A stretch of DNA of 64,000 bases, from positions 1,561,970-1,625,969 of the forward strand of contig JAFLBX010000001.1 of the NCBI GenBank assembly GCA_017303675.1, in the 5' to 3' direction. The notes below the pieces were generated by a model that ran no database searches, had not been told where the DNA came from, and saw only the letters and a list, made by a program, of their open reading frames with translations. Shown piece by piece: positions 55,566-59,478 of the stretch (its first letter is position 1; each line of letters opens with the position of its first letter). Made by a program: the position numbers and the translations under genes. This DNA is from Ignavibacteria bacterium. GTDB taxonomy: Bacteria; Bacteroidota; Ignavibacteria; Tepidaquicellales; OLB5.

Positions 55566-56636
55566 ATGTCAAATATAAGAATAGATAAAATTAAAGAAAT
55601 TCTCACAGAATTGAACCTTGATGCATTTTACATTACGCACATACCTAACATTCGTTATTTGAGCGGATTTTCAGGATCATCAGCCTACATTATAATTACT
55701 AAAGATAAGAATTATTTTTACACAGATTTCCGCTACCAGACTCAATCACATGATCAGGTAAAAGGATTTGAAATAGCAGTAAATTATTCACCTGCTGTTA
55801 ATATTAAAGAGACCATGCTGAATGAAAAATTCAGTAATGTTGGGTTTGAATCAGCGCATTTAACAATTCACCAGCTGAACATACTTAAGGAATCGCTTCC
55901 CGGGATAAATTTTGTAAGTGTACCTGAGCGGATTGAAAAGCTTACAATGGTGAAAACAGCAGATGAAGTTTCAAAAATTAAAAAAGCCTGCGAAATTACA
56001 GATAAGGTATTTGATAAGCTGCTTGAGATAATAAAACCCGGAATGAAGGAAAGCGAAGTATCAGCTGAAATTTCATACTGGCATAAAAAATACGGGGCTG
56101 AAAAGGATTCATTTGATCCAATTGTCGCAAGCGGCTGGCGCGGAGCGCTTCCGCATGGTATGGCAAGCCAAAAGGTGATAGAATCCGGTGAACTTGTCAC
56201 TCTTGATTTTGGTTGTATCTACGAAGGATTCTGCAGCGATATGACCCGCACAATTGCCGTTGGCAAGCCTAAAAGCGATGAAATGGTGAAGATATACGAC
56301 GTAGTACTGCAATCACAATTGCTTGCTGTGAATGCAGCAAAAGCAGGTGTAAATACCAGGCAGCTAGATTCAATTGCGCGTAATTATATTAATGAAAAAG
56401 GATATGAAGGAAAGTTCGGACATGGTTTAGGTCATGGCCTGGGAATTGAGGTTCATGAAATGCCCGGTGTAAGCCAAAGGATGGATATCGATATACCGGC
56501 AAATGTTGTGTTCACCATCGAGCCCGGTATTTATATCGAAGGGCTTGGCGGCGTAAGAATTGAAGATGATGTTTTCACAAAAGAAGGCGGATGCGATGTG
56601 CTGAATACTTCACCAAAAGAATTGATTATAATTTAA
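55566..56636 (+). CDS. Aminopeptidase P family (Xaa-Pro peptidase)
   Basis: 356 residues, the length of prolidase/PepQ-type proteins. Creatinase N-domain followed by a pita-bread M24 domain with metal ligands: D in LVTLDFGCIYEGFCSDMTRT (two Asp), H in GHGLGHGLGIEVHEMPG, E in FTIEPGIYIEGLGG, E in VRIEDDV. Splits X-Pro peptides in the cytoplasm. ATG start. Confidence 0.93.
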   Translation: MSNIRIDKIKEILTELNLDAFYITHIPNIRYLSGFSGSSAYIIITKDKNYFYTDFRYQTQSHDQVKGFEIAVNYSPAVNIKETMLNEKFSNVGFESAHLTIHQLNILKESLPGINFVSVPERIEKLTMVKTADEVSKIKKACEITDKVFDKLLEIIKPGMKESEVSAEISYWHKKYGAEKDSFDPIVASGWRGALPHGMASQKVIESGELVTLDFGCIYEGFCSDMTRTIAVGKPKSDEMVKIYDVVLQSQLLAVNAAKAGVNTRQLDSIARNYINEKGYEGKFGHGLGHGLGIEVHEMPGVSQRMDIDIPANVVFTIEPGIYIEGLGGVRIEDDVFTKEGGCDVLNTSPKELIII

Positions 56637-56638
56637 AT

Positions 56639-56676
56639 CGCCAAGAGCGCTGAGTACATTTTTTACACTCTCGGCG
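56639..56676. repeat. Repeat-like hairpin after the peptidase gene
   Basis: CGCCAAGAG ... CTCTCGGCG pair with one mismatch. The left part CGCCAAGAGCGCTGAGTACA resembles the inverted repeats of the GxxExxY cassette just downstream, so this may be a third, diverged copy or the peptidase terminator. Confidence 0.55.
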
Positions 56677-56757
56677 TATTAAATGAATGGCTTGAAGTAT
56701 ACATTAAAGCAGATATTGCTTAATCAGATCTTGAAAAGTAGTAATTATTATCTGATA

Positions 56758-56786
56758 AACCGCCAAAAACGCTAAGTACGCCAAAT
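56758..56786 (+). repeat. Left 29-bp inverted repeat of the GxxExxY cassette
   Basis: AACCGCCAAAAACGCTAAGT then ACGCCAAAT. 26 of 29 bases match the reverse complement of the repeat at 57216-57244. Confidence 0.85.
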
Positions 56787-56828
56787 AAAAGCACTCAGGT
56801 ATTGAATAAATCACTACAAACACCAGGT

Positions 56829-57215
56829 ATGAATTTAGATGAAATTGGAAAACAAATTGTTGACGCAGCTTATGAAGTTCATAAAACATTAGGACCTGGC
56901 TTACTGGAATCAGCTTATGAGGCATGTTTGAAGCACGAACTTACTTTAAGAGGAATAAGATTTGTTTCTCAAAAGGAAGTACCTCTGATTTATAAGGGAA
57001 TACGTGTTGATGTTGCATATAGATTAGATCTCTTGGTAGAAGATGTAATAATAGTTGAAATTAAATCAACAGATAGATTAACTGATATCAATCTGGCTCA
57101 AATTATTTCATATTTGAAATTAAAGGATTTGAGATTAGGATATCTGATTAACTTCAATGTTAAATATTTCAAAAACGGCATAAAAAGAGTTGCTAACAAT
57201 TTTGCAGATGAATGA
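56829..57215 (+). CDS. GxxExxY family protein (PD-(D/E)XK nuclease-like)
   Basis: 128 residues from the ATG at 56829 (MNLDEIGKQIVDAAYEVHKT); a TTG 27 nt upstream is also in frame. The name-giving motif is GPGLLESAYEACLKHEL, and the nuclease-like core is YRLDLLVEDVIIVEIKSTD (Asp, then E-I-K), followed by QIISYLKLKDLRLGYLINF. Family members are small, scattered proteins with a restriction-endonuclease fold and no settled function. The reading frame sits exactly between two inverted 29-bp repeats; the stop codon touches the right one. Confidence 0.88.
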   Translation: MNLDEIGKQIVDAAYEVHKTLGPGLLESAYEACLKHELTLRGIRFVSQKEVPLIYKGIRVDVAYRLDLLVEDVIIVEIKSTDRLTDINLAQIISYLKLKDLRLGYLINFNVKYFKNGIKRVANNFADE

Positions 57216-57244
57216 ATTTGGCGTCTTTAGCGCTTTTGGCGGTT
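57216..57244 (-). repeat. Right 29-bp inverted repeat of the GxxExxY cassette
   Basis: ATTTGGCGTCTTTAGCGCTT then TTGGCGGTT. The reverse complement differs from the left repeat at three positions. Confidence 0.85.
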
Positions 57245-57267: not shown

Positions 57268-58596
57268 TTGAAGAAAGTTTTAGTAATAACACATGATTTT
57301 CCCCCTTTAGGCAAGGGCAGCGTATTGCGTCCTTTGAAGTTTTCCAAGTATTTCAGGACATACGGCTGGGAACCTATTGTTCTGACATCTACCCCAAAGA
57401 CATATTATTTCAGGGATGACAGCCTGCTGAGGGAAGTTGAGTCGCTGGGAATACAGGTATACAGAACGCCCGGCAGCGGGAATAATCTGCTTACGGGCAG
57501 AAAGCTTAAAGACCTGCCAAATGAAGGCTCCAGAAAGCTGAAGCGCAATATCAGCCGTTACCGTAAACAGCCTGATGAACACAGAAGCTGGATTAATAAA
57601 GCTGTAAAGCTGGGTAAAGAAATAATTGAATCGCATAAAATAGAGATAATCTACGCTACCGGTCCCTCATTCACAGCGCTGATAGCAGCCGGTGAATTGA
57701 AGGATAAATTCAAAATTCCATTGGTTACCGATTACCAGGATTCATGGCTGCACTCCCCAAGCGCATATTACCCTATGGGTTATCACAGGCTGCGCAATAT
57801 GAAGCTTGAACAGGAAGTAATAAAAGTAACTGATGAGATCATAACTACCAACAGGCGCATAAAAGAATACCTGATAGAAGAATATGACTATCTTAAGCAT
57901 GAGGATATAAATATAATTCATCACGGTTATGATGTTGACGATCTTAACCTGGCGGCACAGGGACCGCTTCCTGAGAAGCCGAAGATGCGTTTCACAACTT
58001 CCGGGAATTTCTTTGATCTGGTAACACCGAAGTATTTTTTTGAAGGCATGCGCCTTGCTTTCGAAAATAAACCCGAAATGCGCGGAAAGATTGAAGCGTG
58101 TTTTATAGGGGGACTTTCAAAAGAAAACCTAAAACTGATACAGAAAAACAATGTTTCAGATGCTGTTATAAATCCGGGTTATATCGGGCATATTGATTCA
58201 ATAAAATACCTTATGGCAAGTGATGTGCTGTGGTTCATGATAGATAAAGGAACGGGCTCAGAAGTAATTGCACCTGTAAGGCTTGCTGAATATTTTGGTG
58301 TACGCAAACCAATCCTTGCCTGCACACCTGACGGCGCTGCAAAGCAGCTTCTGCGGGATTATGATGCTGTAAGGATATGCGAGCCCGATGAACCGGAAGA
58401 TATTGCAAAGCTGATAATAGAATATTACGAGCTCTACCAGCAAAGAATGATGCCCATTGCCAATGAGGAAATAGTGCGGAAATTCAATATTAAGAATCTT
58501 ACTTATGACCTGGTTAGATACTTTGAGTTTTTACGTGACATTCCGCCTGAGTTTGGGATAAGGAAAGCAAAGCCTGCTGTTGAAAATGAGTATTGA
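57268..58596 (+). CDS. Glycosyltransferase family 4
   Basis: 442 residues, starting on TTG (MKKVLVITHDFPPLGKGSVL). GT-B fold: PPLGKGSVLRPLKFSKYF in the acceptor domain, EIIYATGPSFTALIAAGELK, then a nucleotide domain ending APVRLAEYFGVRKPILACTP, which carries the E near the usual E-x7-E site in diverged form. FTTSGNFFDLVTPKYFFEGM is the start of domain 2. No other glycan genes are adjacent. Confidence 0.85.
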   Translation: MKKVLVITHDFPPLGKGSVLRPLKFSKYFRTYGWEPIVLTSTPKTYYFRDDSLLREVESLGIQVYRTPGSGNNLLTGRKLKDLPNEGSRKLKRNISRYRKQPDEHRSWINKAVKLGKEIIESHKIEIIYATGPSFTALIAAGELKDKFKIPLVTDYQDSWLHSPSAYYPMGYHRLRNMKLEQEVIKVTDEIITTNRRIKEYLIEEYDYLKHEDINIIHHGYDVDDLNLAAQGPLPEKPKMRFTTSGNFFDLVTPKYFFEGMRLAFENKPEMRGKIEACFIGGLSKENLKLIQKNNVSDAVINPGYIGHIDSIKYLMASDVLWFMIDKGTGSEVIAPVRLAEYFGVRKPILACTPDGAAKQLLRDYDAVRICEPDEPEDIAKLIIEYYELYQQRMMPIANEEIVRKFNIKNLTYDLVRYFEFLRDIPPEFGIRKAKPAVENEY

Positions 58597-58659: not shown

Positions 58660-59385
58660 CGGTGTCGGGGATCAATTTCATGTTTTATACTATAAACGTA
58701 TGACCCCTATGGGGTCATTTTTTTTAAAAAGCTACAAACATTTGACCACTCTGCGGTCAATTATATAAACACATCTTTATTTACCGTCCCAATTCGCCTT
58801 GGCGAAACGGCCTGGGACGAATTTGAGCTTGGAGCTTTAGATTCATTTTTCTTTAAATAACGGTGCCTTCAGATAATGTTTATTTAATTCCTAAACTGGA
58901 GTTTGTCCGAAGGACTTCTTTGGTGGGAATCAGATGTAAAATTGGTTAATGATGTTAGGAGTGTTATTGTTATTTGACTCCGTCAGGAGTCAAATGTTTA
59001 TAGATATAATTTCGAATTAATTTTCGACCCCGTAGGGGTCGCACATAAAAACAATTGACCCCAATGGGGTCAATTTTTTTGTAATTTTTTAAGCTACAAA
59101 CATTTGACCGCTCTGCGGTCAAAGATAATTTATATCCTTTTGTCACTAATATCTGCTTGGGAACATTAATAGGATATATATTCTTTGTTTCCCAAACTGG
59201 AGTTTGTCCGAAGGAATTCTTTGGTGGGAATCAGATGTAAAATTGGTTAATGATGTTGGGAGTGTTTTGATAATTGACTCCGTCAGGAGTCAAATGTTTA
59301 TAGATATAATTTCGATTTTACATTCGACCCCGTAGGGGTCGCACATAAAAACAATTGACCCCAATGGGGTCAATTGTTTTATTCT
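58660..59385. repeat. Tandem repeat block, period about 300 bp, built of GACCCC/GGGGTC palindromes
   Basis: Two near-identical ~190-bp copies (58893-59085 and 59194-59385) lie 300-301 bp apart, preceded by a partial copy (58698-58765). Each full copy has CAAATGTTTATAGATATAAT, TTGACTCCGTCAGGAGTCAA, CGACCCCGTAGGGGTCG and TTGACCCCAATGGGGTCAA; TTGACCGCTCTGCGGTCAA lies between them. No ORF. The 882-bp spacer 58597-59478 is filled by this block. Confidence 0.85.
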
Positions 59386-59478
59386 TTTAAGCTGGTTTAT
59401 ATTAAAAACTGGTTTATGGTATTAGGAGTTGTAATTGATTTCTTGTTTTTTGGTATTTGAGCTTTGGAATTTGGCATT

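Follow-up and report, generated by a model that had tools for sequence, protein, structure and literature searches.

The family of GxxExxY genes looks like a very small and apparently undescribed type of selfish DNA. The reading that we favour, with a probability of roughly 0.6, is that of a minimal selfish element of about 0.45–0.5 kb, whose sole protein is a PD-(D/E)XK nuclease that would bind the arrays at the ends of the element. The copy described here lies in the window, a stretch of 64,000 nucleotides from an Ignavibacteria bacterium. An earlier note on this DNA had observed the gene between inverted repeats, which was confirmed, and had interpreted the whole as a mobile or selfish unit of about 487 bp, which was partly supported. 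A recurrent layout and empty sites support this interpretation; a target-site duplication was sought and not found, and we infer transposition as such. We know of no function for GxxExxY genes, and none was found in the literature searched.

The two 29-bp arms of the window element (56758–56786 on the plus strand and 57216–57244 on the minus strand) match as reverse complements at 26 of 29 positions. The left arm begins with AAC, followed by the units CGCCAAA (56761–56767), CGCTAAG (56770–56776) and CGCCAAA (56779–56785), with linkers of 2 and 2 nt. The right arm is the opposed three-unit array, with CGCCAAA (57241–57235), CGCTAAA (57232–57226) and CGCCAAA (57223–57217) and the same linkers of 2 and 2 nt. 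Between the arms lies the GxxExxY coding region (56829–57215, plus strand, 128 aa), which starts with ATG at 56829. Its stop codon touches the right repeat, as had been noted: TGA occupies 57213–57215 and the arm begins at 57216. Both neighbouring genes are on the plus strand and were named from sequence. The upstream M24-type peptidase gene (55566–56636) stops 121 nt short of the left arm, and the downstream glycosyltransferase-like gene (57268–58596) has a TTG start 24 nt past the right arm.

An inverted-repeat scan of the whole window showed two scoring pairs, the GxxExxY arms and an unrelated pair at 59048/59380, and shuffled sequences gave none. A degenerate arm pattern matched the window at three positions (56638, 56760 and 57222), against 0.00 expected. 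The match near 56638, which had been described as a third and weaker relative of the repeat, is genuine: it forms the left half of a short, decayed two-unit hairpin (about 56637–56685, arm-type unit, no strand assigned) directly 3′ of the upstream stop codon. A fuller hairpin is located at the orthologous place in WB-IL-15 (locus L134), and the decayed hairpin is the remnant of a gene-less element. The window element is present in OLB5 (G003), WB-IL-15 (G005) and BA6 (G006), and in eight other species of the window genus the orthologous gap has neither arm nor gene. L134 also contains a 223-bp tandem duplication, comprising a gene-less hairpin together with the 3′ end of the peptidase gene upstream, and beside it a GxxExxY gene interrupted by in-frame stops. 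The break points of the duplication seem to coincide with arms. Elsewhere in the window (59000–59400), two nearly identical blocks, separated by about 300 bp, both carry the palindromes ATAGATATAATTTCGA, GACCCCGTAGGGGTC and CAATTGACCCCAATGGGGTCAATT, and these blocks look like an unrelated intergenic hairpin repeat.

The window protein was assigned to PF13366 PDDEXK_3 (Pfam, E 3e-42) and TIGR04256 GxxExxY (NCBIfam, E 4e-42). The curated cut-offs were exceeded over the full models (143 bits versus 35 and 144 versus 22), so the protein is a full-length member of the family. The PD-(D/E)XK core (D, then EIK) that had been recognised in place of a transposase held up, with PDDEXK_3 as the sole match. 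G24, E27, Y30, D67, E77 and K79 (window protein numbering; G24xxE27xxY30 and E77xK79) were invariant in 97 sequences, and Q91xxxY95 was nearly invariant, as in the RecB/Cas4 branch. The AlphaFold2 model, for which five plasmid-derived rows were left out of the input, had a pLDDT of 93.5. Its closest fold was Cas4 SSO0001 (4ic1, Z 9.6, 98 residues, 3.4 Å), followed by Hjc (1gef, Z 7.0) and XisH (2okf, Z 5.7), and the protein is predicted to have a Cas4/Hjc-like fold. A sequence search found no solved structure related by sequence, and the Cas4b model matched the protein weakly (E 0.0025). No report of nuclease activity in the GxxExxY family was found in the literature searched. The gene is under purifying selection, with silent codon changes exceeding replacements in nine ortholog pairs.

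The genome of the window contains eight GxxExxY genes, most of which are flanked by an inverted repeat or lie beside hairpins, and every repeat sequence is different. A like layout was found in relatives from Ignavibacteria, Bacteroidota, Gammaproteobacteria, Chlamydiae and other groups. With the threshold set above the 99th percentile of same-locus controls, a flanking inverted repeat surrounded 109 of 146 GxxExxY genes (75%), compared with about 1% of controls. In the first gene set the repeat was present at 54 of 70 genes, 47 of them above the maximum of 2100 controls, and the gap from the stop codon to the right arm clustered between −1 and +2. Because the layout recurs at most GxxExxY genes and in several phyla, it is a recognisable element type, as the earlier note had expected. 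A fixed terminal repeat was ruled out, as the arm sequence differs at every locus; what the earlier note had missed is that the arms are arrays of units with a locus-specific spelling. About a quarter of the GxxExxY genes had no clear arms, which was counted against the selfish-element reading. On a plasmid of Sphingomonas parapaucimobilis (L190), a GxxExxY gene sits tightly between fabD and fabG with no recognisable arms, and it is possibly a fixed or arm-less branch.

The arms could also be an unrelated dispersed repeat, with the gene merely lying among its copies. Solo arms and hairpins do occur away from the gene inside gene-bearing genomes, for example in G138, as this explanation predicts. 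We consider it highly improbable, since at most loci the stop codon directly adjoins the arm, the two sides of the gene share their spacing and dialect, and the same-locus control comparison above speaks against it. Arms are also very rare elsewhere in the genome of the window, where few gene-less unit-type arms were present in 464 kb (a 400-kb sample plus the window). Wide occurrence of the repeats without the gene had been named as a difficulty for the element, and the solo arms and hairpins keep part of that difficulty alive. Across 148 sampled Bacteroidota genomes, arm-positive genomes were mostly gene-positive (20 of 23). The gene was present in 74 of the 148, and the strict arm pattern was found in 20 of the 74 gene-bearing genomes versus 3 of the 74 gene-less ones (Fisher p 1.6e-4).

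The arms had a periodicity of 8–10 bp, with a lag-9 identity of 0.40 versus 0.30 ± 0.011 in shuffled sequences. A typical arm consists of three 7-bp units, C-R-C-N-R-A-K (R is a purine, K is G or T), separated by linkers of 1–3 bp. Agreement between unit letters was computed on the 74 loci with both arms clear. At unit positions 2, 5 and 7, agreement within a locus was 0.81–0.90 in same-arm, opposite-paired and opposite-unpaired pairs, whereas between loci it was 0.47–0.54, about chance level. At position 4 (N), opposite units agreed at 0.486 and non-opposite units at 0.477. The pattern of linker spacing was identical in both arms at 81% of loci, versus 22% by shuffling. That paired and unpaired units agree equally, and that the N position is unpaired, argues for opposed arrays of sites and not for a selected stem; selection of a stem between the arms was ruled out by the equal agreement of opposite and non-opposite units. 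Judged from their letters, both arms are arrays of putative sites for a cognate reader, set in opposed orientation and with a private dialect at each locus.

With a function at the RNA level, the arms would base-pair within the polycistronic transcript, and the resulting stem would act as an insulator or be a processing substrate of the protein. The nearly invariable sense orientation inside operons would suit such a function, but the two arms are different words in RNA and equivalent only as duplex DNA. The N position is no more complementary than the dialect gives, paired units agree no better than unpaired ones, and the arms had no Rfam match, which also rules out a known RNA family. We regard an RNA-level function as very unlikely.

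The unit dialect tracks protein similarity. Unit position 5 varied with window residues 7 and 8 (T7 with G, K8 with A), and unit position 2 with residue 122 (V with CGC, I with CAC). Tree-independent contrasts showed the change from I to V at residue 122 in 6 of 6 informative cases and the change to T at residue 7 in six ungapped cases. After family-wise correction this covariation was not significant (p about 0.09 and 0.15), which was counted against the selfish-element reading, and it weakly suggests that the encoded protein may be the reader of the units. We consider it likely that the protein binds the units of the arms. A further proposal, which we hold tentatively and at somewhat less than even odds, is that the ends are rewritable arrays of short words read by a lone PD-(D/E)XK nuclease through a simple residue-to-base code. 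Residues 7–8 would then specify unit position 5 and residue 122 position 2, and the elements would form a widespread mobile class without transposase or recombinase, each copy having a private address. If this code is true, the numerous protein–site pairs that occur naturally offer a ready-made means of studying DNA recognition by a tiny nuclease.

The locus alignment suggested in the earlier note revealed empty sites at orthologous places. Within one genus, the element occupies, in G040 and G068, a gap of 13 nt that separates a stop codon from the following ATG. The same gap is uninterrupted in G052 and G162, with both flanks 93–96% identical to those of the occupied genomes. The empty spacer in G052 and G162, AAAGGAATTTAAGA, is as in outgroup G083, and outgroup G163 is also empty. 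The more distant G079 has a 78% identical element at this position, which implies either two colonisations of the gap or several clean losses. At a second place, four species have a hairpin, the gene and an arm, and G068 keeps the hairpin alone, a precise deletion between two directly oriented arms. In the gap behind a gene named mutS-like from its sequence, the element proteins of different species are only 31–34% identical. The suggested search for a target duplication found none: the aggregate of 83 loci, in which copies are mostly old and without a strain-level empty site, gave no signal. Many copies are vertically inherited at one place, which was also counted against the selfish-element reading.

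Derivatives of the element were found as well. At L064, six copies of 117–127 bp lie in 147-bp tandem arrays and contain, in order, the left arm, a mid-gene stretch, and the gene end with the right arm; they are internal-deletion (MITE-like) derivatives that keep both ends. Gene-less hairpins, some with a 5-bp loop, are present in gene-bearing genomes. L252 (G079, 418–478) and L251 (G138, 365–429) have back-to-back arms with outer ends 9–13 bp apart, the reverse of a hairpin. Inverted repeats with 8–9-bp periodic arms (e.g., CAATGAACAATGAGCAATTAACAATAA) were also observed at L080 (7308–7408), L078 (8728–9204) and L090 (12413–12517), with no GxxExxY gene seen between them. They are possibly another dialect or another class of repeat.

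Classical homing and an autoregulatory role are the main rivals of the selfish-element reading. A homing-type nuclease would cut the empty intercistronic site, the gap would be filled from the occupied homologue, and the arms would only insulate the gene or block self-cleavage. The 13-nt gap, occupied in G079 and G040/G068 and empty in G162, G052, G083 and G163, would suit homing. However, the elements of one genome occupy many unrelated gaps, the letters of the protein track the arm units, and the MITE-like copies lose the gene and keep the arms, and we judge homing to be unlikely.

The placement of the elements bears on the second rival. The elements lie in tight gaps between co-directional genes. 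Both neighbours had the same sense as the GxxExxY gene in 97 cases and both were antisense in 4; the median distance was 14.5 nt from the upstream stop to the element end and 27 nt from the element end to the next ATG, and these tallies count orthologous loci of one genus more than once. Such a sense orientation within operons would suit an operator or insulator, in which the protein binds the arms to regulate its own transcription or that of the operon, the gene being inherited with an autoregulatory loop and not mobile. The dialect-specific unit arrays would fit a DNA-binding regulator, and many loci are vertically conserved. Yet autoregulation needs no operator past the stop codon, and the catalytic triad is invariant. 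The hairpins without a gene, the tandem arrays and the copies with internal deletions point to mobility, as do the empty sites and the turnover of unrelated elements in one gap, and we give the operator a low probability.

GxxExxY relatives were found in 8 of 72,556 plasmids and 2 of 50,697 phage records, and this rarity rules out plasmid or phage carriage as the vehicle. In the archaeal Halogranum tailed virus 1 (KC292026.1, 91549–91875), a distant relative is annotated as a PD-(D/E)XK nuclease.

Under the selfish-element reading, we infer three steps: the protein reads the units, it cuts DNA, and the cutting drives spread. Selfish mobility is probable in our view, whereas cleavage of the ends as the driver of spread is rather doubtful. 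Most likely the protein would act as a multimer, bound to units of its own dialect. The bound protein may bring the two ends together and cut at or near them, and host break repair would then copy or re-insert the element, or delete it and leave an arm or a hairpin. The element would settle in tight operon gaps in the sense direction, where, placed along transcription, it would need no promoter and do little harm. The gene-less hairpins and internally deleted copies would be its non-autonomous derivatives. The defined ends turn orphan GxxExxY nucleases into a recognisable element type, offer a DNA target with which biochemical tests could begin, and account for the ACCACAGAGGACACAGAG-like hairpins in gene-bearing genomes.

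Among known systems, insertion sequences and MITEs share with these elements the single gene, the inverted terminal repeats and the internally deleted non-autonomous copies, and the six L064 deletion derivatives have both ends, as gene-less MITEs do. In contrast, no DDE, HUH, tyrosine or serine transposase was found here (only PDDEXK_3), no target-site duplication was seen, and the ends vary from copy to copy. RAYT/REPIN systems, in which a REP-associated tyrosine transposase goes with its repeats, resemble the present elements in the single small nuclease gene, the short inverted repeats, and the gene-less hairpin derivatives in intergenic gaps (compare PMC3116915). RAYT enzymes belong to the HUH/Y1 type and REP sequences are palindromic, whereas the enzyme here is of the PD-(D/E)XK type, with no HUH Y1, and the arm is a non-palindromic array of units.

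The protein is similar in fold to Cas4 and Hjc-like nucleases, including XisH, the fdxN excision factor, but it has only 128 aa, and cas genes are absent from its surroundings in the window. The neighbours of the window gene are peptidase-like and glycosyltransferase-like, not cas1/cas2 or CRISPR. Each end of Tn7 has several transposase-binding sites, and TnsA is also a PD-(D/E)XK protein. The present elements likewise have several sites per end and a PD-(D/E)XK protein, but they have no TnsB-like recombinase and are more than ten times smaller. Literature searches with the protein name and the arm words found nothing on the flanking unit arrays, the dialects or the element layout. The TIGR04256 and PF13366 models cover the protein alone, and elements of the window type add to it the flanking unit arrays and their dialects.
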